Shown: in pieces, positions 17,326 through 35,964 of the stretch
Numbering within the stretch: the stretch's first letter is position 1
How the letters are laid out: each line of letters opens with the position of its first letter
Source: a filamentous cyanobacterium ESFC-1
GTDB taxonomy: Bacteria; Cyanobacteriota; Cyanobacteriia; Cyanobacteriales; Spirulinaceae
NCBI GenBank assembly: GCA_000380225.1
Contig: KB904821.1
Span: forward strand, 3,977,795 to 4,041,794
Direction of reading: 5' to 3'
Length of the DNA: 64,000 bases
Notes under the pieces: model-generated
Told to the model about the DNA's origin: nothing
Databases searched by the model: none
Seen by the model: only the letters and a program-made list of their open reading frames with translations
Program-made: the position numbers and the translations under genes

Positions 17326-19509
17326 ATGACCGCGATGAGCGAATATTACATTACATTAAAACCCGTTTATGCCTGTCCTGCCGAGACACCTCCAAATGTC
17401 CAGTTACCCTCCGGTTGGCAATTAGTTTGGCATCAGGTAGAGACATTAAAAGCCCTCCGCGACCCAGAAATTGATGTCATTATTAATGTGGCAATGACGG
17501 GAGATGGCAAAAGTTTAGCCGCGTATCTCGAAACCCTATCGACTGATTTTTGTGCCATTGGTTTATATCCTACCAATGAACTAGCCCGCGACCAAGAGCG
17601 ACAAATTCAGAGTTATATTTCTACGTTTCAGCCTCAATTTGAACCGCGAGTTAATCGTTTGAGTGGTGCAGATTTAGAGCTTTATGCCGAGCAGGAAAAT
17701 ATTAAAAAAGCTGCCGCGATCGCAACTCGTAGCAAACAATCAGAAGTGCTTTTAAGCAATCCTGACATTTTCCATTATTTACATCGTGGAGCATATCTCA
17801 CTCCCTTTGATAATCCCGATAAACTGTGGAATCGTATTGATAAAAACTTCGATGTTTTTATTTTCGATGAATTTCACGTTTTTGCTGCCCCCCAGATTGC
17901 CAGCGTCCTAAATACAATGCTTCTAATTCGGCGAACCAATCGCCAGAAAAAGTTTTTGTTTCTCTCCGCAACCCCAGATGAGCAGTTAATTGAAAAACTG
18001 GAAATTGCTGGCTTTAGTTACAAAATAATCGATCCGAATCAGTCTCAAAAATATAAATTTCCGACGACTTCTGAAGCCGAGAGCAATTTACAGCAGCAAA
18101 GCTGGCGGCAAGTCTCTAGAGCAATTACTTTAAACTTCATTTCTTTAGAATCAACCTTTTCAGCTTCAGAAACTTGGCTCAAAGTCAATCAAAACTTAAT
18201 CCTACAATATTTTCAAGAAAATCCGGGTAGTAGAGGTGCAGTTATTCTCAACTCAATTGCCGCCGTTAAACGCCTTGTCCCACAATTCCGCGAGTTTCTT
18301 ACCCCTCATGGCTTAACCGTGGGTGAAAATACAGGTTTATCCGGTCGTCAAACCAAGTTAGAATCCCTCGATTGCGACCTTGTTTTTGGGACAAGTACGA
18401 TTGATGTTGGGGTAGATTTTAAGATTAACTTGCTTATCTTTGAATCTGCCGATGCGGGTAACTTTATTCAGCGTTTGGGGCGTTTAGGTCGTCATGCAGA
18501 TTATATTAAAAATGGGGTGAAAGTTAAGTTCAATAGCTTTACAGCTTATGCCTTAATTCCTAAGTTTCTAGTAGAGCGATTATTTACTCAAGATAATGCC
18601 CCTTTTCAAACAGGAGAAAGTTACGATCGCGTTTTTCTCAACCAAGCTATTTATCACAATTTCCGTCAGATTAATAATTTCTCTGGTTATTACAGACGGT
18701 GGGGTGCAGTCCAGTCTTTTAATCTTTGGTATAGCTTAGGTAATGCCAAAATTCAGTCGAGTTACGCAGTCAGTCGCGAGAAATTCAAACAAGACTGCGA
18801 ACAAGTTTTTGATACCAACTTTAAACGAGTTGTTGGCTGCGTCAAAAAATGGTCACAGGAATGGCAAGCTAAAGCCCATAAAAAAGGCAATCCCATCTTT
18901 TCTGATGCGTCGAGTTTTCGCGGTTCAAGTCCGTTGCAATGTGGCTTATACGACCAAACCGAAATCAACGAAATTGACCGTTTTAAAACCTACGATTTAC
19001 CCGGTATTTTGAGTAACCTTGATATTGGGATTTGGACAGAAGCCGGATTTATGCGATCGCTCCGAGATACTGTTCATCGTACCGGAAACGCGATCGCAAA
19101 AGGACATTTTAAACACTGTATCGCTTTTATGACCTTGCGGGGGTATCGCGAGGAACGTCTCAACTGGAAATTTACCTACTCTGGCAATTTGCAAGACATC
19201 GCAGACGCTTGGAAAGTGCAAGTATTAGTCGGAATCGAAGTTTGGCAACCCGAAAACCGATGGATTAGCGGCATTAACCAGCGTCTCCGCAAACAGGGAA
19301 TCGTCAGTTACGTCCTCCCTCACCCCGTCGCAGAGATTCGTCAACGGCTACAACTCCCCATGCACTTCGCTCTCTATCCCATCAGCGACGCAACCAGCAT
19401 CCACGATGCCACACCTCCCTACTCGATTGCAATGGGTCAAGCGGCTTTGTTGTTGGATACTCTAGCTTATCGCTTTAAGAGTAAGGGGGGTGAGGTATGG
19501 ATTTGTTAA
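17326..19509 (+). CDS. cas3: Type I-D CRISPR-associated helicase Cas3' (no HD domain)
   Basis: The 727-residue superfamily 2 helicase has Walker A MTGDGKS at 57-63, a Walker B DEFH box at 181-184, LSATP (motif III), and motif V/VI sequences GTSTIDVGVDF and FIQRLGRLGRH. No HD nuclease is present, as expected for type I-D, where the HD domain is carried by Cas10d. It unwinds target DNA after Cascade binding. It is the first gene of the cas operon. The ATG at 17326 follows a weak AGG; an in-frame ATG at 17335 is the alternative. A MNT-fold gene follows after 100 bases. Confidence 0.95.
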   Translation: MTAMSEYYITLKPVYACPAETPPNVQLPSGWQLVWHQVETLKALRDPEIDVIINVAMTGDGKSLAAYLETLSTDFCAIGLYPTNELARDQERQIQSYISTFQPQFEPRVNRLSGADLELYAEQENIKKAAAIATRSKQSEVLLSNPDIFHYLHRGAYLTPFDNPDKLWNRIDKNFDVFIFDEFHVFAAPQIASVLNTMLLIRRTNRQKKFLFLSATPDEQLIEKLEIAGFSYKIIDPNQSQKYKFPTTSEAESNLQQQSWRQVSRAITLNFISLESTFSASETWLKVNQNLILQYFQENPGSRGAVILNSIAAVKRLVPQFREFLTPHGLTVGENTGLSGRQTKLESLDCDLVFGTSTIDVGVDFKINLLIFESADAGNFIQRLGRLGRHADYIKNGVKVKFNSFTAYALIPKFLVERLFTQDNAPFQTGESYDRVFLNQAIYHNFRQINNFSGYYRRWGAVQSFNLWYSLGNAKIQSSYAVSREKFKQDCEQVFDTNFKRVVGCVKKWSQEWQAKAHKKGNPIFSDASSFRGSSPLQCGLYDQTEINEIDRFKTYDLPGILSNLDIGIWTEAGFMRSLRDTVHRTGNAIAKGHFKHCIAFMTLRGYREERLNWKFTYSGNLQDIADAWKVQVLVGIEVWQPENRWISGINQRLRKQGIVSYVLPHPVAEIRQRLQLPMHFALYPISDATSIHDATPPYSIAMGQAALLLDTLAYRFKSKGGEVWIC

Positions 19510-20055: not shown

Positions 20056-23000
20056 ATGCCAAAACGAAAGAAAAAAACAGAAAATTCTCAACAACTAAGT
20101 TTGTTTGATAGTAGTAACGAAAACTCAGAAATTGAACCAATCGATGATTTTGAAGACATTGATTTAGATGCTCTATCCGACGAAAACTTAGGACTAGACG
20201 GAGATGAGAGCGATCGCACCGTCGAAACAGAGCAAGAATTACTCACCCTCAAACTCTTAAAAGAGGCAATTCAAAAGACTAATTCCGACGATTTGGTAAT
20301 GGCTGACTTTGCTGAATTAGTATTACCTCAACTTCTACATTATGCTATCGGTGTGACAGCGAAAGGTGGTAACTTTTTTGATGAAATCGATCGCCGTCGT
20401 GCTGAAAACGGAAAAGAAAGAGTACGACGAGATAATGCTGGCGATCAATCTTTAAATACTCACTTACTCAACGGCTTATTTCCAGCTAATTTAATCGAGA
20501 GGAAACTGTCGCAAGGCAATACAACAATTCGTCGAATCTCTAATGAATTAACGCGAAGAATGGCTGTAGCAGCATTTATTCTGCATGACTTTGAGAAATT
20601 CGATTATACACTTTTCCCAGATATGCCGGAAAAGTATGTTCAAATTAGTCAAGATTGGGAACAAGATATTCGTAAACTCACAATTAGCGAGCATCGAGAA
20701 ATTTTTGAAGTTTTCATTACAGCATTAAAACTCGATCGCTTTTTGTTTCCCGACAATCCGAATCAATGGCGAGATTATATCGACGATTTACTTTATATTG
20801 CCTATAACGCCCAGATTCGTAACGATACTAATCTCAATTTATCAGTTGATAGTTTACAGCCCCAAATGCGCGATCGCGTCCTTGATGCTTTAGCCGATTT
20901 AGCCTGTTTAGCAGACCGTTTTGCCTCGATTGTCAAACACCCCCAAGACGCACATCATAAAGCTTTAGGAGAGCTTATTCACTCCCTCAGCGACGGACAA
21001 CTCAAGCTAACTTATCACAGTATTTCTGAGAATCGCGGAGTATTAACTAATGTTGTGAATAACGCGGTGATGGAGGCTTATCAAGAATGTCAGTATGAGC
21101 CATTATTATATTTACCTACTGGGGTTATTTATTTGTGCGATCGCGATGTAATTCCCATCTCCTCTGACTCTCTCCCAGATCGGGTGATTGACACAATTAA
21201 AAACCTCTGTCGCAGCGAATTACGTCGTCGTCAAACTGGATTTGGCCGCGATGGAAAGGGAATGAAATATGCTGATTATTACAGCCAGTTTTTCGACGAT
21301 CAGGGCTTAATGCAAGTTGCCTTGGATGCAACTCTCCGCATTCTCAAACCCACCAAGTCTTCTGTAGCAAAAAGCCGCAGCGATAACTTAATTTCATTTC
21401 AGCAAAAAGGCGTACTTTCTGCTGATTATGACTTTAGTTTTGAAGACGATATTCGCATCGATCAACTCGCAGAATTTGGCGATGTTGCGAGTCGGAAGAT
21501 TTGGGGAGACAGGTTGAGTAAGATCGCGGAATTATGTAAGCAAAACAAAAAACTAGAAAAACCTCCTCATCTAGACCTAATTATCGAAGTTGCTCAATTT
21601 TGGCAACTCGAAGAATACATCCCCCAAATTCGCGAAATCCAACGTATTAATGAATCTCTCAAAGAACTAAAACTCAAAGGTAATACAGGAGGAGTTCCCT
21701 ATGAATGGTATTACCTCGCGGCACAATATCTCAAACATAACCCCGGTATCGCACCCGAAGAAATAAAACCCATCGGTGAAGAAATTTGTACTTTTATCGC
21801 TCAGAAAATACAGCCAATTGTCTCACAATACGACTTACCTGACGGTTGGGACGATCTCAGGGAATGGTTGCGTCATGTTGTTATGCTTCCCCATCCAGAA
21901 ACAACAGCACAACCGGGAGAACAAGTACAGCCTTTCTTGAATGAATTAGCCAACTATAACAATGCTAAAAAACCCGGTCGCGGTCGTCAACTTATCTGCT
22001 CGGTTTCTCATTCTGCATACACTGTCAGCGAACAAATGGAATCGGCAGTTTTATTTACTCCCCAAGTTTATACCAACAAACAAATGCTGGGGGGTTCTAA
22101 TGCGAAACGTAATATTTCTAGTATTGCGGGAGTTGAAATGATGCTGCGACAGATTTTAATGAATCAAACGCAAGCAGTTGGGAAGCGATTTGAAGATGGG
22201 AAATATCGCTATCTTTACTTCTACCCGACTTATTATTTCACCCCAGAAACCAATCAATTTTTACAACAAGCTTATTCCAACATTGCCCAAACGCGATTTG
22301 ATACCAAGATTCGCAAACATTTTGTGAGTGCAGAGTTGCAGGCAAATTTTGAGCGATCGCGCTACCAAACCGTTGATACTTTTCTCATTGATGCAGAGTT
22401 ACAGGACAAGAAACTTTTACCAGATAATGACCCAAATCACAAAAAAGACCGAACATTCAAACTCTCTTATCCGGAAGATAAACCCCTCACTTTTTACTTT
22501 ATTGCTCTCCCCCCAGAAAAGCCCCCAGGAAAAAATCAAGAGAAAAAAATAACCGATACAGCATCATGGATTATGCCTGCATGGTTAGCCTTCGCTTTCC
22601 CCCTCATTCTTGACGTTAAAACCGTCGTTTCCGAGTCTCCCATTCCCCCTTATCGTGATGGTGCAGAATTCGAGGAAACCGTATTTCTCGACAGCGCACC
22701 GCAAGCATTACGGGTATTGACAAAACGCGATCGCTTCCGCCTAGATTCTATCTTATCAGGATGGGAAGATGGCGATCGCCAAAAATATCCTGCTCCTCTC
22801 AATGTTTTAACCGCAGCTTATTCGATTCATTTAGATGTCAATGCGAAACAAGGAAAATCAGGATATGACCCCAATTGGGGGAAATTAACCGAACTTGCAA
22901 CTCAACTAGAAACCAGTCCTCTTTATGTCTTTCATTACCTCAATAAATGGACGCGAGGGAAAGATACTGATATCCCAAGTCTCAGTCGTATTCGCTTATA

Positions 23001-23541
23001 CACTTATGACTTTTACCCCTGTTTTGACCCCTATGTACAATTCAATTCAACAATCAACAAATTGGATATTAAAATGCCAGAAAAATCACCTTTGAATCAT
23101 CCCCAAAAACTAACCGAACTTTATCGCAATTTTTATCGAGCAAATAAACGCTATAACCCCAAAGCGAATGCTGTTTTGAAACCGATTGATATTGCTTCTG
23201 AAACAATTTTGAAAGCAGAATCTAGCGTTTTTCAAGGAGAAACTTTAGTTGCAGCAGTAGCCGCAGAAGTTTGTAAACTAATGGATCGCGTTCATGCTTC
23301 TACCGCAGAAGGACGTTGGCAAATGAGCGATCGCGAAAAGGAAAGACAAGCCGTTTTAGAATTTGCTAAATACTTTGTAATCGAAGTTTTTGAAAAGTCA
23401 TTCAAAGGCGATCGCGCTCGTTTAGCAGGACGACAAATCAACCTGATCCGCGATACTTGCGAGTTTCTTTACCGTTTAGAACAAGATAAAGAAAATCAAA
23501 ACGAGCAAGCTCAACGAGAAGCTTCAGAAAGCGCAGAATAA
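20056..23541 (+). CDS. cas10d: Type I-D large subunit Cas10d (Csc3) with N-terminal HD nuclease
   Basis: The 1161-residue protein has an acidic, low-complexity first 70 residues. An HD-type region follows with H136 (NTHLLNGLF) and HD at 177-178 (FILHDFEKFDY), the site thought to cleave DNA in type I-D. The remaining palm-like and helical regions are diverged. No GGDD cyclase motif is visible, consistent with Cas10d. In the effector it takes the place of Cas8 and contributes to PAM recognition. It lies between the MNT gene and csc2, and its stop is 44 bases before csc2. Confidence 0.93.
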   Translation: MPKRKKKTENSQQLSLFDSSNENSEIEPIDDFEDIDLDALSDENLGLDGDESDRTVETEQELLTLKLLKEAIQKTNSDDLVMADFAELVLPQLLHYAIGVTAKGGNFFDEIDRRRAENGKERVRRDNAGDQSLNTHLLNGLFPANLIERKLSQGNTTIRRISNELTRRMAVAAFILHDFEKFDYTLFPDMPEKYVQISQDWEQDIRKLTISEHREIFEVFITALKLDRFLFPDNPNQWRDYIDDLLYIAYNAQIRNDTNLNLSVDSLQPQMRDRVLDALADLACLADRFASIVKHPQDAHHKALGELIHSLSDGQLKLTYHSISENRGVLTNVVNNAVMEAYQECQYEPLLYLPTGVIYLCDRDVIPISSDSLPDRVIDTIKNLCRSELRRRQTGFGRDGKGMKYADYYSQFFDDQGLMQVALDATLRILKPTKSSVAKSRSDNLISFQQKGVLSADYDFSFEDDIRIDQLAEFGDVASRKIWGDRLSKIAELCKQNKKLEKPPHLDLIIEVAQFWQLEEYIPQIREIQRINESLKELKLKGNTGGVPYEWYYLAAQYLKHNPGIAPEEIKPIGEEICTFIAQKIQPIVSQYDLPDGWDDLREWLRHVVMLPHPETTAQPGEQVQPFLNELANYNNAKKPGRGRQLICSVSHSAYTVSEQMESAVLFTPQVYTNKQMLGGSNAKRNISSIAGVEMMLRQILMNQTQAVGKRFEDGKYRYLYFYPTYYFTPETNQFLQQAYSNIAQTRFDTKIRKHFVSAELQANFERSRYQTVDTFLIDAELQDKKLLPDNDPNHKKDRTFKLSYPEDKPLTFYFIALPPEKPPGKNQEKKITDTASWIMPAWLAFAFPLILDVKTVVSESPIPPYRDGAEFEETVFLDSAPQALRVLTKRDRFRLDSILSGWEDGDRQKYPAPLNVLTAAYSIHLDVNAKQGKSGYDPNWGKLTELATQLETSPLYVFHYLNKWTRGKDTDIPSLSRIRLYTYDFYPCFDPYVQFNSTINKLDIKMPEKSPLNHPQKLTELYRNFYRANKRYNPKANAVLKPIDIASETILKAESSVFQGETLVAAVAAEVCKLMDRVHASTAEGRWQMSDREKERQAVLEFAKYFVIEVFEKSFKGDRARLAGRQINLIRDTCEFLYRLEQDKENQNEQAQREASESAE

Positions 23542-23585: not shown

Positions 23586-24590
23586 ATGGCATTACTCAAC
23601 AGCATCGACAGCAAATTCTTTCATTCAGAAATTCCCTACAAACCTATGGGAAAATATGTCCACTTTCTCACCGTCCGCGTTACCGAATCTTACCCTCTAT
23701 TTCAAACAGACGGCGAACTTAATAAAGCCCGTGTTCGTGCAGGAATTAATAACCGCCAAACTCTCAGCCGTCTAACCATGTTCAAGCGTAAACAATCGAC
23801 TCCAGAACGTTTAGCAGGACGGGAACTCTTACGGAAATATGAGTTTGTGAAACCGGAAGAATGCGAATATAATGTTGCATTTGGAATGGACAATCCTGAC
23901 TGTATTATTTACGGCTTTGCTATTGGTGATTCTGGTTCAGAAAAATCCAAAGTAGTCGTCGATACTGCATTTTCTATTACCTCTTTTGATGAGTCTCACG
24001 AAACCTTTACTCTCAACGCACCTTTTGAAAGCGGGACAATGGCTTCCAAAGGTGAAGGCACAACAAAGCCAGGAGAAGTCACCAGTCGCATTAATCAACA
24101 AGATCACATTCGTCCCCAGGTCTTTTTCCCTAGCATTGTGACGCTCAAAGACCCCACTGAAGCCAGCTTTTTGTATGTTTTGAATAATATACTGCGAACG
24201 CGGCATTATGGCGCACAAACCACCCGCACAGGACGAGTCCGTAACGAGTTGCTGGGGGTTGTTTTTGCGGATGGAGAAATCGTCAGCAATTTGCGTTGGA
24301 CACAAGCGATTTATGACCGTCTTCCTGAAGATATCCTGCAATCTATCGATCCTTTAGATGAAAACCTTGTCATGGAAATAGCAACCGCAGCGATTCAAGA
24401 CTTAATGCAAGATGAATTTATCGTACATACTGACTTCATTGGTGAAAGCTTCCGGCCAATTTTACAGGATATCAAAGCTTTAACTGCAAGCGAAGAAGGG
24501 ATAATTTCAATCCTGAATCAAGCAAACGAAGAAGCAAAAAAATATGCAGAAGCTCACATTGGCAAAAAGAAAAAAGCTAAAGCCAAATAA
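23586..24590 (+). CDS. csc2: Type I-D Cascade backbone Csc2 (Cas7d)
   Basis: The 334-residue protein starts MALLNSIDSKFFHSEIPYKP and has the Csc2 features AGINNRQTLSRLTMFKRKQS, FGMDNPDCIIYGFAIGDSG and the central NQQDHIRPQVFFPSIVTLKD. Csc2 forms the helical backbone that binds crRNA along its spacer. A strong Shine-Dalgarno AAGGAGA lies about nine bases before the ATG, in keeping with the many copies of this subunit per complex. The C terminus is a Lys-rich tail. A 15-bp inverted repeat follows before csc1. Confidence 0.95.
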   Translation: MALLNSIDSKFFHSEIPYKPMGKYVHFLTVRVTESYPLFQTDGELNKARVRAGINNRQTLSRLTMFKRKQSTPERLAGRELLRKYEFVKPEECEYNVAFGMDNPDCIIYGFAIGDSGSEKSKVVVDTAFSITSFDESHETFTLNAPFESGTMASKGEGTTKPGEVTSRINQQDHIRPQVFFPSIVTLKDPTEASFLYVLNNILRTRHYGAQTTRTGRVRNELLGVVFADGEIVSNLRWTQAIYDRLPEDILQSIDPLDENLVMEIATAAIQDLMQDEFIVHTDFIGESFRPILQDIKALTASEEGIISILNQANEEAKKYAEAHIGKKKKAKAK

Positions 24591-24714: not shown

Positions 24715-25422
24715 ATGACTATCATTTCTCGTTATCGTCTTGAACTTCACGACAGCCTTTATTTCGCAACCCGCGAACTCGGTAGACTGTATGAAACTGA
24801 ACCCATTATTCATAACTACGCTTTGTGTTATGCGCTGGGATTGGTAGATAGCGATCGCTATAATACTCGCGTTGAAAACGAAGCAGAATATCGCTATTTT
24901 TGTGCGACGCAAATACCTTTATACGAAGCCCATTTGACTCGTCTTAATGAAGCAGGAATATATGTTACTCCCGCACGAAGTATCACTTATGCAGCAACCC
25001 TCAATACCTGGAAATATGCCAATAATAACTATCATGTGGAAATGCAGAAAACTCAAAAAAATATTCCTAGCTTTGGCAGGACTAAGGAAATTGCAGTCGA
25101 GAGTGAATTTGAATTCTTTTTAATAAGCCAACAACAACTAAATTTGCCTCGTTGGATTCGCTTGGGAAAATGGGCAAGTAAAGCAGAAATTAGCAAAATT
25201 GAGGACTATTCAAATCCTCAAAGAAGATCGGGAAGTTTTACTTTTTCTTACCCCCTCAACCCTCTTGATGTCATGTTTTCTTATCGCGTAATGAGTTACG
25301 ACACGATTAATATGCCTCCAGTCAGCTTGATTCGGAATGTTAGTTTATCTGGGGAGTATTATCAGTTACCCAATAAGCAAAGTCTTAAAATTCCAGCTAA
25401 CCTTTCTTACTGCTTTAGTTAA
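24715..25422 (+). CDS. csc1: Type I-D Cascade subunit Csc1 (Cas5d)
   Basis: The 235-residue protein begins MTIISRYRLELHDSLYFATR, the RAMP-fold start of Csc1. It has the family features REIGRLYETE-like (here RELGRLYETEPIIHNYALCY), a central KNIPSFGRTKEIAVESEFEF and a VSLSGEYYQLP end. Csc1 caps the 5' handle of crRNA in the I-D effector. The gene follows csc2 after a gap containing a hairpin and precedes an unknown 84-residue gene by 12 bases. Confidence 0.92.
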   Translation: MTIISRYRLELHDSLYFATRELGRLYETEPIIHNYALCYALGLVDSDRYNTRVENEAEYRYFCATQIPLYEAHLTRLNEAGIYVTPARSITYAATLNTWKYANNNYHVEMQKTQKNIPSFGRTKEIAVESEFEFFLISQQQLNLPRWIRLGKWASKAEISKIEDYSNPQRRSGSFTFSYPLNPLDVMFSYRVMSYDTINMPPVSLIRNVSLSGEYYQLPNKQSLKIPANLSYCFS

Positions 25423-25434
25423 CTCATAAAACCC

Positions 25435-25689
25435 ATGATCATTGCCGAACTAATCGAACAACTAAAACGCTACGATCCCAACTGGTTAGTTGTGGTTGCG
25501 GGCTACCATCACGGCTACAACCATGTTAGTAAAATAAACGCGATCGCGCTGCAACTCAATACTAACCAAACCTGGGATAGCGGCGCTCATTCTCTGGCAA
25601 ACTTGAATCATTGCGAAGCCACACCAGCCCTATTTTTAGGGGGCTACAACGACAATATTCCCTACAACCCAGACGATTATGCCTCATAG
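25435..25689 (+). CDS. Unknown 84-residue protein in the cas operon
   Basis: The product begins MIIAELIEQLKRYDPNWLVV and continues GYHHGYNHVSKINAIALQLN, with an acidic end (NDNIPYNPDDYAS). I do not recognise a named family. The first 45 residues resemble small cyanobacterial proteins of a generic ELI-x2-L-x4-P-x4-V pattern. It is soluble and has no membrane span. It lies 12 bases after csc1 and overlaps the cas6 start by 11 bases, so it is almost surely co-translated with cas genes. That makes an accessory role in the I-D system plausible, though its function is unknown. Confidence 0.75.
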   Translation: MIIAELIEQLKRYDPNWLVVVAGYHHGYNHVSKINAIALQLNTNQTWDSGAHSLANLNHCEATPALFLGGYNDNIPYNPDDYAS

Positions 25690-26497
25690 TTTAGTTCTCA
25701 ACTTATTACCCTTATCTCCCATTTACCCGAACTATCTCACCGGGAGACATTTTCATGCTTTGTTTTTGACTTTAGTGAGTTCTGTTGACCCAGAATTGGG
25801 GGCAATGTTGCACAATTCTACGATGAATAAAGCCTTTACATTGTCGCCATTACAAATACAAAAACAAGGGATAGTAAAACAAACCTTGCAATGGGAATAT
25901 ACGCGGGAGATTAAGCCAGGTGTGCCTTGTTGGTGGCGGATTTCGTTGTTAGATGATGAGTTGTTTGGCCGTTTAACGAAACTGTGGTTAAATCTCAATC
26001 CGGAACAGCCTTGGCATTTGGGGTCAGCCGATTTAAAAATCACCAGTATCCTCGGTACAAAGCAATCAATACAGCCTTGGGCAAATGCTTGTTCTTATGA
26101 GCAATTATACGAAGAAGCGAGCGAAACGGAACGAGCGATTAATTTAGTTTTTTCGTCTCCAACGGCGTTTCGTCAGGGCAAGTATGACACGGCTTTACCC
26201 ACGCAGGAAACTGTTTTTAATAGTTTGTTAAGTCGTTGGCGCAAGTATAGTGGGATTGAGTTTGAGGAGATTAATTTTGACCCGGTTTTTCCCAGTTATT
26301 TTGATATTAAAACGGCGATTACAAAGGATTCTCGGAGTAAGTTTATCGGCTGTGTGGGGGCGATGGGGTATCGTATTTTAGGCGATCTTGAACCTATCCA
26401 AATTAAACAGTTGAATGCGTTAGCGGATTTTGCTTTGTATTGCGGTGTGGGGCGTAAAACGACGATGGGAATGGGAATGGTAAGGCGTGTCAGTTGA
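25679..26497 (+). CDS. cas6: CRISPR pre-crRNA endoribonuclease Cas6
   Basis: The 272-residue RAMP protein has an N-terminal TGRHFHALFLTLV segment with His residues that may be catalytic. A glycine-rich loop GVGRKTTMGMGMVRRV closes the C terminus, the hallmark of Cas6. It cleaves the repeat RNA, most likely leaving an 8-base ATTGAAAC handle on each crRNA. The start overlaps the preceding small gene by 11 bases. A 275-base gap with repeats separates it from cas4, so the effector and adaptation modules may have separate transcripts. Confidence 0.93.
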   Translation: MPHSLVLNLLPLSPIYPNYLTGRHFHALFLTLVSSVDPELGAMLHNSTMNKAFTLSPLQIQKQGIVKQTLQWEYTREIKPGVPCWWRISLLDDELFGRLTKLWLNLNPEQPWHLGSADLKITSILGTKQSIQPWANACSYEQLYEEASETERAINLVFSSPTAFRQGKYDTALPTQETVFNSLLSRWRKYSGIEFEEINFDPVFPSYFDIKTAITKDSRSKFIGCVGAMGYRILGDLEPIQIKQLNALADFALYCGVGRKTTMGMGMVRRVS

Positions 26498-26772: not shown

Positions 26773-27366
26773 ATGAATGAATCAGAATATATCCCCATTG
26801 CGGCGTTGAATCAATATGCTTATTGTCCCCATCGGTGTTGGCGGATGTTTTGTGCGGGGGAGTTTACGGAGAATGAGTACACCATCGAGGGGACGAGTTT
26901 GCACGATCGCGTCCACAGTTTGAGCCAAGAAAAACAAGGCGAGGATTGGCAGATTCGGGCGATTTGGTTGAAATCTCGGCAATACGGTTTAATTGGTAAA
27001 TCTGACCTGATTGAAGCCAGTAATGGTGAGATTTTTCCGGTGGAATATAAACGAGGTCGCAAGGGAGAGTGGGATAACGACGAGTTGCAGGTGGGCGCAC
27101 AAGCGTTGTGTTTGGAGGAAATGACGGGAAAATCAATCAAAATTGGCTATGTTTACTACGCTCACTCTCACCACCGCCAGGAAGTGGAGATTTCTGAAGA
27201 TTTGCGCGATCGCGTCCGTCAAACCATTACCGACATTCAAAGGCTATTTACCGACAATATCGTGCCGCAAGCGGTATATTCGCCTCGATGTCGCGGTTGT
27301 AGTCTCAAAAGCCGTTGTTTGCCCCAAGCTACGGCAAAAGTCGCTCGTTATCAAGAAATTTCGTAA
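26773..27366 (+). CDS. cas4: CRISPR-associated exonuclease Cas4
   Basis: The 197-residue protein has the PD-(D/E)xK core GKSDLIEA and FPVEYKRGRKG. It also has an iron-sulfur cluster ligand set of C18 (YAYCPHRC) with C173, C176 and C182 (PRCRGCSLKSRC). Cas4 trims prespacers and helps choose the PAM end before integration by Cas1-Cas2. It heads the cas4-cas1-cas2 set; cas1 starts 16 bases after its stop. Length and motifs are standard. Confidence 0.93.
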   Translation: MNESEYIPIAALNQYAYCPHRCWRMFCAGEFTENEYTIEGTSLHDRVHSLSQEKQGEDWQIRAIWLKSRQYGLIGKSDLIEASNGEIFPVEYKRGRKGEWDNDELQVGAQALCLEEMTGKSIKIGYVYYAHSHHRQEVEISEDLRDRVRQTITDIQRLFTDNIVPQAVYSPRCRGCSLKSRCLPQATAKVARYQEIS

Positions 27367-27382
27367 AGTTAAGGAGAACAAA

Positions 27383-28387
27383 ATGGGAACAGTTTATGTG
27401 TTGGAAGAAGATGCCTTTATCGGAAAGGTAGACGAACGGTTAACGGTGAAAGCGGATAAAAAACGGCTGTTGGATGTACCGTTGATTAAGGTGGAAGGCT
27501 TGGTAATTCTGGGACGAGCGACGCTTTCCCCGGCGGTAGTGATAGAATTGCTAGAACGTCACATTTCCGTGAGTTATCTAACCCGGACGGGGCGTTATCT
27601 GGGGCGATTAGAACCAGAAGCGACGAAAAATATCTTTGTGCGAAAGGCGCAGTGGTTGGCTATCGGAGAATCAAAACAAGCGATTCATGCGGCGGGTGGC
27701 TTTATCCGAGGGAAGCTGAAAAACTACCGCAACGCCTTATTGCGTCGTCAACGGAAAAACCCAGAACTTGACTTACAACAACCGTTAAAGCGCTTAGAGA
27801 ATGCGATCGCGCCCTTGGATGAAAAATCTAGCATCAACTCATTGCGGGGGCTAGAAGGGGCGGGAAGTGCTGCGTATTTCGGCAGTTTCGACAATCTGAT
27901 TCAGAATAAAAGCTTTCAGTTTCGAGATCGCAACCGCCGTCCCCCTACTGACCCCGTTAACGCTATGCTCAGTTTAGGGTACGCTCTCTTACGTCACGAT
28001 GTCCAGAGTGCGGTAAATCTGGTCGGCTTTGACCCCTATCTCGGTTATCTCCACGTTGAGCGTTATGGTCGTCCCTCCCTAGCCCTCGATCTCATGGAGG
28101 AGTTTCGTCCTTTGGTGGTGGATGCGGTGGTGTTGAATGCCATCAACAAAAATCACCTCTCTCCTGATGATTTTAGCAGCGAACCCCTCAGCAAAGCCGT
28201 CTCCCTGACTCCTGACGGTCTCAAAATCTTTCTGCGGTTGTACGAACAAAAGAAACAAACCCAATTCAAGCATCCCGTCTTCAAGCGTCAGTGTACTTAC
28301 CAGGAGGCTTTTGAATGGCAAGCCCGTTTACTCGCGAAGTATCTCATGGCAGAAACAGATAAATATCCCCCTTTAATCCTGAAATAA
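27383..28387 (+). CDS. cas1: CRISPR integrase Cas1
   Basis: I set the start at the ATG at 27383, six bases after AAGGAGA, giving 334 residues from MGTVYVLEEDAFIGKVDERL. A longer in-frame reading from 27143 would run through cas4 and is rejected. The metal site is intact: E158 in RGLEGAGSAAYFG, H224 in GYLHVERYGRPS, and D236/E239 in LALDLMEEFRP. Cas1 integrates new spacers at the leader end of the array together with Cas2. It is 12 bases upstream of cas2. Confidence 0.95.
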   Translation: MGTVYVLEEDAFIGKVDERLTVKADKKRLLDVPLIKVEGLVILGRATLSPAVVIELLERHISVSYLTRTGRYLGRLEPEATKNIFVRKAQWLAIGESKQAIHAAGGFIRGKLKNYRNALLRRQRKNPELDLQQPLKRLENAIAPLDEKSSINSLRGLEGAGSAAYFGSFDNLIQNKSFQFRDRNRRPPTDPVNAMLSLGYALLRHDVQSAVNLVGFDPYLGYLHVERYGRPSLALDLMEEFRPLVVDAVVLNAINKNHLSPDDFSSEPLSKAVSLTPDGLKIFLRLYEQKKQTQFKHPVFKRQCTYQEAFEWQARLLAKYLMAETDKYPPLILK

Positions 28388-28399
28388 CTTATTGACCTT

Positions 28400-28687
28400 A
28401 TGTTTGTCACGATTAGTTACGATATCTCCGACGATCGCCGCCGCACGAAGATTCACAAAATTCTGAAATCCTACGGTCAATGGATGCAGTACAGTATATT
28501 TGAATGCGAATTGACCCCAACTCAGTATGCCAAGTTGCGATCGCGTCTCAACAAACTCATCAAATCTGAAACCGACAGCATCCGTTTTTATTTCCTCTGT
28601 GCTTGCTGTCAGGGTAAAATCGAACGCATTGGCGGTGAAATGCCCAGGGATGACACGATTTTCTTTGCAGAATGCGCCGATGGGTAG
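28400..28687 (+). CDS. cas2: CRISPR-associated Cas2
   Basis: The 95-residue ferredoxin-fold protein starts MFVTISYDISDDRRRTKIHK with the conserved Asp at position 8. It also has the VQYSVFEC-like strand (here MQYSIFECELTPTQ) and DSIRFYFLC. Cas2 dimerises and bridges two Cas1 dimers in the adaptation complex. It is the last cas gene, 214 bases before the first repeat. Confidence 0.95.
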   Translation: MFVTISYDISDDRRRTKIHKILKSYGQWMQYSIFECELTPTQYAKLRSRLNKLIKSETDSIRFYFLCACCQGKIERIGGEMPRDDTIFFAECADG

Positions 28688-28901: not shown

Positions 28902-31900
28902 GTCGCAATTCCTAATAATCCCTATGAGGGATTGAAACAGTCGCGATCGCCTTTCCTCCCCCACCACCAGGCAGTCGCAATTCCTAATAATCCCTATGAG
29001 GGATTGAAACGGTATAAGTCCACATTTCCCGCCCCCTTTCAAAAAGTCGCAATTCCTAATAATCCCTATGAGGGATTGAAACGTAGCCGAATTGATTTAT
29101 CAATCGATGATTACTCGAAAGTCGCAATTCCTAATAATCCCTATGAGGGATTGAAACAACTCATCAATGACCGACTGCTGAATAAAGTCTTGTCGCAATT
29201 CCTAATAATCCCTATGAGGGATTGAAACAAAGGAAATGCCATTATTATTCCTGTTATTAATAGTCGCAATTCCTAATAATCCCTATGAGGGATTGAAACT
29301 CAAAGTAAAATCTAGCTTGGCGGCTAAAAACCGTCGCAATTCCTAATAATCCCTATGAGGGATTGAAACGGAAAAGCGATTTCTGAACCATTACCGATGC
29401 AAGTCGCAATTCCTAATAATCCCTATGAGGGATTGAAACTCTCTTTAATATTCATAAGATAAAGCCTCTTTAAAGTCGCAATTCCTAATAATCCCTATGA
29501 GGGATTGAAACGGGGAATTTTGTGGTAGGTGCTATCATGGAAAAAGTCGCAATTCCTAATAATCCCTATGAGGGATTGAAACGACCGGATATCTATGCGA
29601 ACGGGAACCTTAGCCGGGTTGTCGCAATTCCTAATAATCCCTATGAGGGATTGAAACCGTTTAGCCGCTTATGGCTCTTTTTCCCATGAACAGGTCGCAA
29701 TTCCTAATAATCCCTATGAGGGATTGAAACCGGTAAAGAGCATTTCAACGCCAATCGTCGCAAGAGTCGCAATTCCTAATAATCCCTATGAGGGATTGAA
29801 ACCGATAGTTATGTTCGCATATATGATTGCAACTATGTCGCAATTCCTAATAATCCCTATGAGGGATTGAAACCTTTAGAAATTTCAGCAGCCTCAATTT
29901 CTAAATCGTCGCAATTCCTAATAATCCCTATGAGGGATTGAAACGTTGATAGAAGAACCGCCCCCAGAACCGCCACCGTCGCAATTCCTAATAATCCCTA
30001 TGAGGGATTGAAACCTCCAGAGGCATGAAGTTTGCCAGTCGATTTAAAGCCCGTCGCAATTCCTAATAATCCCTATGAGGGATTGAAACTAACGGTTCAA
30101 TCGGCTTTAACGGTAGTTTCTCTGGTCGCAATTCCTAATAATCCCTATGAGGGATTGAAACTTACAAGAAATCCTTAGTAAATGAATGAGCAAATGTCGC
30201 AATTCCTAATAATCCCTATGAGGGATTGAAACCACTTATTCTGGCGGATATATAACCACCACAAGCGTCGCAATTCCTAATAATCCCTATGAGGGATTGA
30301 AACTTCAAGGTTAAATAGATGCCATAAAATAAATGAGAGTCGCAATTCCTAATAATCCCTATGAGGGATTGAAACATAGCGCTTGGCACTAAGTACATAT
30401 ACGCGTTCAGAGTCGCAATTCCTAATAATCCCTATGAGGGATTGAAACAAAAGACCGCTTGAATAGCTCATCAAGTGTCAAGACCAGTCGCAATTCCTAA
30501 TAATCCCTATGAGGGATTGAAACAAGACAGTTTCCGAGTTGTTGTCGTTGCGTTCTAACGTCGCAATTCCTAATAATCCCTATGAGGGATTGAAACAAAA
30601 GGATTAACGGCGATCGGATTGCGGTTAACTCGTCGCAATTCCTAATAATCCCTATGAGGGATTGAAACATAATTCTTTGGTAGCTTCGGGGTTTCAATCC
30701 CTGTCGCAATTCCTAATAATCCCTATGAGGGATTGAAACATACACACTCTGGGAAGTATGAGTAAGAGACAAATGTCGCAATTCCTAATAATCCCTATGA
30801 GGGATTGAAACAGAAAAAACGGTAGTTACAACGGTAAGCAACGGTGGGTCGCAATTCCTAATAATCCCTATGAGGGATTGAAACGCGGTATGGGGGCTTA
30901 AGCGACCGGGAAACCCAGAGTCGCAATTCCTAATAATCCCTATGAGGGATTGAAACCAAAAAGGGAAAAAGCGCGGTGAGCTAGTTTATGTCGCAATTCC
31001 TAATAATCCCTATGAGGGATTGAAACCGATTCATCCTGACAGATTGCATGATTGTTGTATGCAGTCGCAATTCCTAATAATCCCTATGAGGGATTGAAAC
31101 TAAGTTGCTTTGCAATCCATACTAATGATGAATCTGAGTCGCAATTCCTAATAATCCCTATGAGGGATTGAAACGTGGCATTGAATAATGCCATGCGTAC
31201 AGCGTACGTCGCAATTCCTAATAATCCCTATGAGGGATTGAAACTTTTTTAAGTCCGCAGCTTCTTCTGAATCAATCGTCGCAATTCCTAATAATCCCTA
31301 TGAGGGATTGAAACTTACAATCGGGCTTCTTTGGCAAGCCGTTACAAGGTCGCAATTCCTAATAATCCCTATGAGGGATTGAAACAGATTGACGCTGTTC
31401 GTACAGAGCTTACTTTTTAGTCGCAATTCCTAATAATCCCTATGAGGGATTGAAACCAGTTTTTTGAGGATGCTGCGGCTTGGGGAATGAGTCGCAATTC
31501 CTAATAATCCCTATGAGGGATTGAAACTTATATCCCATCCGGAATCGTTGGCAAAAACCGTCGCAATTCCTAATAATCCCTATGAGGGATTGAAACAGAA
31601 TATTAGCAAACAAAACTTGGAGTTCTCAAGGTCGCAATTCCTAATAATCCCTATGAGGGATTGAAACGGTTAATTGACCCGAACACTAATCAGTATCTTC
31701 AAGTCGCAATTCCTAATAATCCCTATGAGGGATTGAAACAACACTAAAAGGCATTCAACAGCAACAGGCAATAGCCATCTAGTCGCAATTCCTAATAATC
31801 CCTATGAGGGATTGAAACGCCGAGACGACACAGATGTCGCGATCGCGTCTCAGGTCGCAATTCCTAATAATCCCTATGAGGGATTGAAACAGCAAAATTG

Positions 31901-32111
31901 GGATGGTGAGCATATAACTCTAGAGTCGCAATTCCTAATAATCCCTATGAGGGATTGAAACTTTATCTTCGAGTTCGCAAGTTCTTTGGATAATATCTCT
32001 AGTCGCAATTCCTAATAATCCCTATGAGGGATTGAAACTAATAAAATCCCTAAATAGCCGTCCGGTAAGACTTCGTCGCAATTCCTAATAATCCCTATGA
32101 GGGATTGAAAC
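28902..32111 (+). CRISPR. Type I-D CRISPR array: 45 repeats, 44 spacers
   Basis: The repeat is 37 bases, starting GTCGCAATTCCTAATAATCC and ending CTATGAGGGATTGAAAC. It contains the hairpin AATCCC-TATGA-GGGATT and leaves ATTGAAAC as the likely 5' handle. I count 45 copies by their start positions, and all those I inspected are identical, including the last one (32075-32111). Spacers are mostly 33-38 bases, with a few longer (42 at 31740-31781). I saw no duplicate spacers. Two spacers contain the HIP1 octamer (near 28942 and 31840), and one (30669-30702) ends in the reverse complement of the repeat 3' end. Transcription is left to right, with the leader and newest spacers at the cas2 side. Confidence 0.99.
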
Positions 32112-35226: not shown

Positions 35227-35538
35227 GTAGGGGCTGGGTTTCCCGGCCCAATACACGCGTTAATATCTTATTGATTGCTTTTAGTTGAGATTGGATGAGG
35301 AGACTTCATCTTTACACAGATAATTTAATTGTAGGGGCTGGGTTTCCCGGCCCAATACACGCGTTAATATCTTATTGATTGCTTTTAGTTGAGATTGGAT
35401 GAGGAGACCTCATCCCTACACAGATAATTTAATTGTAGGGGCTGGGTTTCCCGGCCCAATACACGCGTTAATATCTTATTGATTGCTTTTAGTTGAGATT
35501 GGATGAGGAGACCTCATCCCTACACAGATAATTTAATT
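35227..35538. repeat. Tandem repeat, 3 copies of 104 bp
   Basis: Units begin GTAGGGGCTGGGTTTCCCGG at 35227, 35331 and 35435 and end TAATTTAATT. The first differs from the others at a few positions (CTTCATCTTT versus CCTCATCCCT). Each unit starts with the palindromic GGGTTTCCC-type motif seen elsewhere. It fills most of the 430-base gap after the Uma2 gene and has no open frame I would support. Confidence 0.95.
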
Positions 35539-35559
35539 GATATAAAGGTTTTGTGGCTT

Positions 35560-35620
35560 AACCAACAACCAATAACCAACAACCAACAACCAACAACCAA
35601 CAACCAATAACCAACAACAA
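35560..35620. repeat. Heptamer STRR array (CCAACAA/CCAATAA)
   Basis: About eight heptamers run directly into the start of the 52-residue gene at 35622. As read in the gene direction the array is C/A/T only, with no G. Confidence 0.93.
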
Positions 35621-35621
35621 A

Positions 35622-35780
35622 ATGGGACGACAAGCTAAACAGAAAAAACTCCGTAAAACTCAAACCGAGTCCACCGAATCGACTCAATTTGTGCGACAAT
35701 TGCAGCGCCAAGGTTATAACCTCAACCAAGGAGAACATTCCCCCGAAATCCCCGAAGAAAAGACCGATCCGCAAGTTTAA
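35622..35780 (+). CDS. Small conserved cyanobacterial protein (52 residues)
   Basis: The open frame begins MGRQAKQKKLRKTQTES and continues FVRQLQRQGYNLNQGEHSPE, ending EIPEEKTDPQV. The basic head and the short FV-x-L-x4-GY-x-L motif look like a conserved small protein I have seen in cyanobacteria, though I cannot name it. No Shine-Dalgarno is present; the heptamer array abuts AAAATG. It lies 254 bases upstream of groEL on the same strand, outside the CIRCE-controlled unit. Confidence 0.65.
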   Translation: MGRQAKQKKLRKTQTESTESTQFVRQLQRQGYNLNQGEHSPEIPEEKTDPQV

Positions 35781-35964
35781 GATTAAACGAAATTGACTCA
35801 AAAAGCGCGATCGCCCTTGAAAGCCGATTCGGTTATACCGCAAAAACCCGACCTGTTTAGGACTTGACAAAACAAGCTTTATATGCAGTCACAAAAAAGG
35901 CGATCGCAACAAACCCAATAACTACAACACTTTTCCCCATTTCTGTTTTAGAATAAACCCAGAT

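Follow-up and report, generated by a model that had tools for sequence, protein, structure and literature searches.

A Type I-D CRISPR Spacer of the Cyanobacterium ESFC-1 That Ends in a Reversed Repeat Tail and Was Probably Captured at the Border of a Foreign Element Bearing a Repeat

Introduction

Where does a CRISPR spacer come from when one of its ends is a reversed copy of the end of the repeats that surround it? The question is raised by spacer 25 of 44 in an array of the filamentous cyanobacterium ESFC-1 (Spirulinaceae), found in the window analyzed here, a stretch of 64,000 nucleotides (assembly GCA_000380225.1, contig KB904821.1, positions 3,977,795 to 4,041,794 of the forward strand). 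The initial annotation of the window proposed that the spacer had been captured from a CRISPR array or a pre-crRNA with a related repeat, and that its crRNA may regulate or poison crRNA processing. We analyzed the anatomy of the spacer, looked for its source and for spacers of the same kind in other cyanobacteria, and weighed the competing explanations.

Results

The array (28902–32111, + strand) consists of 45 identical 37-nt repeats, GTCGCAATTCCTAATAATCCCTATGAGGGATTGAAAC, and 44 spacers. It adjoins a full set of type I-D genes, all on the + strand, and is assigned to this type: cas3' helicase (17326–19509; TIGR03158), cas10d/csc3 (20056–23541; TIGR03174), csc2, the cas7 gene (23586–24590; TIGR03157 and PF18320), csc1, the cas5 gene (24715–25422; TIGR03159), cas6 (25679–26497; TIGR01877 and PF10040), cas4 (26773–27366; TIGR00372), cas1 (27143–28387; TIGR04093) and cas2 (28400–28687; TIGR01573). 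The type I-D Cas1 match begins at residue 83, and the true start of cas1 is likely downstream of the listed TTG. Judging from the position of the cas genes, the leader side of the array is presumably at the cas2 end. The genome has seven arrays whose repeats, 128 in total, end in AGGGATTGAAAC.

Several irregularities were seen in and around these arrays. In the array with the same repeat at C1:656500–660700, two repeats are separated by a stretch of 179 nt, the first 35 nt of which are shared with two nearby spacers; the stretch holds an open frame starting ATGGATAAG (read by eye), and tblastn with 47 residues gave no phage match. The array at C1 ~1838004–1838980 contains duplicated spacers, one present three times and three others twice. 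In the window, at 35227–35621, a tandem unit of ~104 nt is repeated three times with ~97% identity and is followed by a ACCAACAACC-type repeat.

Spacer 25 occupies 30669–30702 (ATAATTCTTTGGTAGCTTCGGGGTTTCAATCCCT) between two intact 37-nt repeats, the upstream one at 30632–30668 (+ strand), ending in AGGGATTGAAAC, and the downstream one at 30703–30739 (+ strand). Its length of 34 nt is normal for an array in which spacers range from 32 to 42 nt. As the initial annotation had noted, its flush 3' end, GTTTCAATCCCT, is the exact reverse complement of the last 12 bases of the repeat, i.e., an antisense copy at 30691–30702 (− strand). The remaining 22 nt (30669–30690, + strand) are unique and would form the PAM-proximal seed side if the type I-D rules given in the available text of PMC10212523 hold. 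In the window, AGGGATTGAAAC was found 46 times, 45 times on the + strand as repeat ends and once on the − strand at 30691–30702. The genome as a whole (5,632,035 bases in three contigs) has 131 copies, 86 forward and 45 reverse: the 128 array repeats, the one antisense copy and two isolated copies, both without the repeat hairpin.

For all 121 spacers (116 distinct) of the seven arrays, we scored how many nucleotides the spacer ends share with the repeat, using four geometries. In the antisense-3'-end geometry, 91 spacers showed no overlap, 25 showed 1 nt, three showed 2 nt, one showed 3 nt and one showed 12 nt; in the remaining three geometries the overlap was 4 nt at most throughout. Given the base composition of the spacers of the window array, 6.9e-6 flush 12-mers would be expected in 121 spacers, and 3.3e-4 12-mers located anywhere on either strand. 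The reversed repeat tail is a real feature. The repeat piece stops exactly at the repeat boundary and reaches the spacer end, as would be expected of a spacer taken from a repeat-bearing element.

The source of the spacer was sought in the genome itself and in increasingly distant collections. The initial annotation was right that no spacer of this array begins with CCCGAAGCTACCAAAGAATTAT; the genome has no other such site at up to three mismatches, with one for the reversed control pattern. Still, that another array must be the source does not follow from this missing start and is unproven. Even with up to three mismatches allowed, the unique 22 bases recur nowhere else in the genome, and with this tolerance spacer 25 matches its own genome at the spacer itself only. 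It resembles the self-targeting spacers described in the available text of PMC6990116 in that a part of it matches host DNA, but it differs from them since the match is confined to the terminal 12 nt and neither the 22-mer nor the 34-mer finds a further one. Among 13 genomes of the family (ESFC-1 included), three other sites with three mismatches were detected, with 10 to 13 mismatches at best over the 34-mer. ESFC-1 was the sole match for the 34-mer (up to three mismatches) among 386 genomes of the phylum. A 21-mer with up to two mismatches gave one further site in 388 genomes of the order (ESFC-1 included), an array spacer of genome G656 that diverges further on and was taken as a chance match.

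The collections of contigs and mobile DNA gave similar answers. One exact 19-mer of spacer 25 had no match in the GTDB contigs and a 24-mer had none in IMG/VR. Shorter words were found in IMG/VR without extending any further, a 16-mer in 14 stretches (the best with 9 mismatches over 34 positions) and a 17-mer in two. Of the 11 viral matches to AGGGATTGAAACCCCG, ten had 11 to 16 mismatches over the 34 positions and the eleventh ran off the end of the available stretch, leaving only a part of the 34 comparable. The degenerate coding pattern for GIETPKLPKNY, a frame on the other strand of the spacer, had no match in the viral scan. Spacer 25 hit 26 phage records, none covering 80% of it among the 20 matches listed, and one plasmid record, with less than 80% covered. 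The whole array hit eight phage and eight plasmid records; the listed spans contain repeats, and a spacer match may hide inside them. A phage or plasmid protospacer matching all 34 bases, the find that would have spoken against the initial annotation, was not encountered in IMG/VR, phages or plasmids, nor was a protospacer with a GTN PAM within the reach of each search. Because the genomes sampled are subsets of larger groups and records close to ESFC-1 may be missing from the collections, the source may still lie in a sister strain.

Spacers of a similar nature were found in other cyanobacteria. The scan of genome contigs for GGGATTGAAACN{16,32}GTTTCAATCCC hit one stretch only, which belongs to Laspinema palackyanum D2a (the same sequence as genome G506). 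Its spacer, CTCAGACTCGATCAGGAGTTTCAATCCCTGGTAGG, reads on the other strand as CCTACCAGGGATTGAAAC followed by 17 nt, with the hairpin loop ACC, whereas the repeat of its own array, CCCTTTCAGGGATTGAAAC, has the loop TTC. In genome G575, the spacer GTAAGCCATACCCTACCAGGGATTGAAACTCCGTTT carries a repeat-like hairpin in the sense orientation, again with the loop ACC against ATC in the repeat of its array, and its 5' part is unlike the array repeats viewed. The exact ACC 18-mer occurs in six of the 388 genomes of the order: in arrays of G529, G426 and G206, in the spacers of G506 and G575, and as solitary copies in G575 and G647. By this 18-mer, no ACC array is present in G506, with the spacer only, or in G575, with the spacer and one solitary copy. 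The ACC loop was considered as a mark of phages alone and discarded, because ordinary ACC arrays exist in 3 of the 388 genomes; hence the Laspinema and G575 spacers could derive from an array of another bacterium. Neither spacer found more than weak, incomplete matches among phages and plasmids (E values of 0.08 or worse); for G575 these include repeat units of phages N1 and MaMV-DH01.

A wider census was taken among the 388 genomes. The antisense pattern was present in nine of them and its reversed control in seven. Seven of the nine matches lie in arrays: spacer 25, the Laspinema spacer, one spacer each in G309 and G588, and three internal 9-mers without extension, taken as chance (L057, L058 and L063); the matches L056 and L061 are outside arrays. 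In the G309 and G588 spacers the tail is flush with the 3' end and 8–9 nt long (8 or 9 depending on where the repeat boundary is placed), and it also fits the repeats of their own genomes, in which no sources of the two spacers were found at up to three mismatches. The sense pattern was present in 37 genomes and its control in 25, as counted by hand. The sense census listed 46 places, 16 of them without a locus; among the 30 loci screened, 12 with more than three tails were viewed in context and 18 were only counted. The G575 spacer was the one clear capture among the 12, the others being degenerate array ends, partial repeats, short internal matches or non-arrays. As raw numbers these counts show little; what carries the argument is where a match lies and which loop it has. 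Scoring of 513 spacers from 19 loci gave overlaps of 7, 8 and 8 nt in the antisense-3' geometry and of at most 5 nt in the other three, with the reservations that these loci were chosen because of their matches, that both 8-nt overlaps are the very matches that selected their loci, and that the repeat of L095 was derived as 13 nt. Altogether, two clear cases, Laspinema and G575, suggest at the sequence level a class of host spacers with non-self repeat pieces. The spacers of G309 and G588, like spacer 25, would fit this class, their repeat pieces being too short to tell self from foreign. In genome G409, an array terminus consists of AGGGATTGAAAC in three tandem copies.

Repeat units of this family are also carried by viral DNA. 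Nine stretches of viral contigs contain ATCCCTATNAGGGATTGAAAC, and in IMG/VR CCCTANNAGGGATTGAAAC was found in 41 stretches on 40 contigs. In 31 of the 41, the repeat was seen only once within 700 bases; since the available sequence breaks off less than 700 bases from the unit in 16 of these 31, so that some may be cut arrays, and one counted among them (L114) does have a second but degenerate copy, the true solitary units are fewer than 31. The 31 stretches represent 18 distinct 37-mers, and the 5' halves of many of these are unrelated. AA is kept at the next stem positions in 16 of the 18, though the pattern did not ask for it (the exceptions are L046 and L137); it is this stem conservation, together with the repeat-spaced pairs in L050, L052 and L116, that argues for an excess of the units over chance, in place of a measured control.

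Named phages belong here as well. Short arrays with repeats of this family occur in two Nostoc phages, N1 (four units by exact match) and YongM (two units); for cyanophage N-1, a CRISPR array of five units is reported in the available text of PMC4916379. MaMV-CH01 has two units, MaMV-DH01 one and Ma-LMM01 three ending in GAAAA. In the viral stretch L118, a virion structural family is encoded beside such units, as is a transposase.

Further observations concern the surroundings of the units. Nine IMG/VR stretches (L117, L118, L119, L120, L124, L125, L127, L134 and L144) and L160 of MaMV-DH01 share a repeat unit of one family, mostly visible inside a long inverted repeat, CACAACAGCTAA ... TTAGCTGTTGTG. 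The three repeats of Ma-LMM01 (~35763–35941) equal the MaMV-CH01 repeat except for the last base, and they overlap annotated 56 bp repeat units and hypothetical genes. In MaMV-CH01, the 39-nt stretch between two identical repeats resembles the reverse complement (35 of 39 positions) of what lies just before the first repeat on its upstream side. In one viral family (L115, L121, L133, L141 and L142), two differing repeat-like units stand 45 nt apart and an 8-nt gap replaces the spacer. Solitary ACC-loop units are present on bacterial contigs in G575 (L147:9503) and G647 (L148:3041), with inverted repeats close by; the G647 contig has a second, degenerate unit downstream. The solitary copy in G575 is flanked by an inverted repeat, and the one neighbor examined had no PHROG match.

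Discussion

The position of the tail, the scarcity of such overlaps and the analogous spacers make it highly probable that spacer 25 was captured from repeat-bearing DNA of some kind, an array of the own lineage included. The most likely reading is that spacer 25 is the captured edge of a foreign repeat-bearing element, and foreign mobile DNA is its probable carrier, though by no means a certain one. Spacer 25 would then be a type I-D spacer of the ordinary kind, its protospacer having straddled the boundary of a CRISPR-like repeat in foreign DNA. Its opposite strand reads AGGGATTGAAAC, the end of a DR5-type repeat, and then the 22 nt following it. The likeliest carrier would be a mobile element with a solitary Racr-like unit, a pair of units or a mini-array, since elements with this hairpin and handle occur in cyanophage sequences. 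Its fragment may have been taken up by the Cas1-Cas2-Cas4 adaptation module by the usual route. Besides the reservations noted above on the ACC loop, the census counts and the solitary units, two points weigh against this reading. Just 12 nt of the repeat were captured, without the loop and the 5' half that are diagnostic of self versus foreign, and the carrier sequence was not found in IMG/VR, phages, plasmids, the 386 and 388 genomes or GTDB (one 19-mer). As for the initial annotation, its related-repeat source is supported by the geometry and the two analogous spacers; an array or a pre-crRNA is only one candidate for that source, solitary phage repeats fitting equally well.

The orientation of the insert invites an explanation by the PAM. 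According to the available text of PMC10212523, the type I-D PAM is GTN on the 5' side and the type I seed comprises the first 8–10 nt. As read from the sequence, GT is missing from the sense strand of the hairpin half of the ESFC-1 repeat. A sense fragment that begins in this half would therefore have no GTN PAM, but for an antisense one the flank can provide it. This argument fits the antisense cases and is no rule, as the G575 spacer is in the sense orientation and starts upstream of the hairpin. The crRNA seed would lie in the unique 22 nt and the repeat tail would pair at the PAM-distal side only. As the own arrays match the last 12 nt alone, the host repeats should be spared.

An array of the own lineage, either one of ESFC-1 whose source spacer has since been lost or one of a related strain, is a credible but unlikely alternative source. 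The type I-D machinery would in this case have taken a fragment that spans a spacer and the repeat end and inserted it antisense. In favor of this are the seven arrays of the genome with their 128 repeats, and the spacers of G309 and G588, which share the geometry and carry pieces matching the repeats of their own genomes. However, at up to three mismatches the source spacer is missing from the ESFC-1 genome, as those of the latter two are from theirs, and both captures long enough to be judged, in Laspinema and G575, have a loop that is not of the host.

That the 12-mer merely happened to stand at the end of a spacer from an ordinary invader gene is improbable. The frame GIETPKLPKNY has no stop (read by eye), making a coding origin possible, and the 12-mer does occur twice outside arrays in 5.6 Mb. 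Against this stand the expectations calculated above for 121 spacers, the lack of a full protospacer in the IMG/VR, phage and plasmid collections, and the longer captures known from Laspinema and G575.

Even less probable is a role in which this part of the crRNA base-pairs with the ATTGAAAC handle, whether in cis or in trans, disturbs processing and is kept for that reason. In isolation, the 12-bp hairpin is stable, with −15.2 kcal/mol versus −6.7 kcal/mol for the isolated native repeat hairpin, but it is absent from the minimum-energy folds, and handle–spacer pairing does not dominate the predicted cis fold: its mean probability was 0.058 in the repeat-spacer-repeat RNA (mean of the 44 spacers 0.043, maximum 0.598) and the handle of the mature crRNA was paired at 0.129 (maximum among the array spacers 0.703). 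The element is present in one copy in an array of 44 spacers. Moreover, the available text of the review PMC10212523 gives 45 and 39 nt as the lengths to which type I-D crRNAs of Synechocystis are processed further, and this would probably trim the 3' side. The native upstream hairpin of the spacer 25 unit had a probability of 0.03 against a mean of 0.08, which is not exceptional; as the folding model disfavors this hairpin in most units, it is a weak guide either way. The poison or regulator role proposed in the initial annotation is not supported by cis folding. Capture of pre-crRNA through an RT-Cas1 was dismissed, since the four reverse transcriptase matches (PF00078) are near none of the four cas1 loci, the closest to the cas1 of the window being ~116 kb away, so RNA capture is left without visible machinery.

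Capture across the edge of a foreign repeat unit touches several known systems. The available text of PMC10651486 describes Racrs, RNA anti-CRISPRs made from single repeats on phages that imitate those of the host, and its search of IMG/VR3 counted 2,103 solitary repeat units in viral DNA, so such units are known as a class; by analogy, the cyanophage units described here, which keep the hairpin and the handle and vary elsewhere, could act likewise. Spacer 25 itself is a host spacer and no Racr; a Racr-like unit is its putative source. Spacers taken from Racrs are not discussed in the available text of that paper, and a search mostly of titles and opening lines of abstracts, in a literature mostly outside subscription journals, found among the papers listed no report of spacers derived from solitary repeats. 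Phage arrays and mini-arrays with DR5-type repeats in cyanophages are described for N-1 (PMC4916379) and in a review (PMC11656645), as far as their available texts go; a fragment crossing the edge of one of their units would resemble spacer 25, but among the matches listed no phage of the collection, N1 and YongM included, covers at least 80% of it. Some of the solitary units could instead be modules like the CreTA ectopic repeats, one or two degenerate repeats outside arrays (available text of PMC9458426); spacer 25 differs from these in sitting within a normal array.

More generally, it may be, and we say so tentatively, that the CRISPR memories of cyanobacteria include some directed at RNA anti-CRISPRs of phages, in the form of spacers acquired across solitary repeat units, with the flank as the seed and the repeat-like part kept PAM-distal. 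If the source of spacer 25 was a chromosomal array after all, the spacer would record array DNA entering the adaptation pathway. If such spacers do come from phage elements that mimic repeats, hosts can become immune to a decoy modeled on their own repeat, and host arrays become a route to Racr-carrying phages. The problem of self and non-self would then have a simple geometric answer, a seed placed outside the mimic, by which the immune system would recognize its own decoy and leave its own arrays unharmed.
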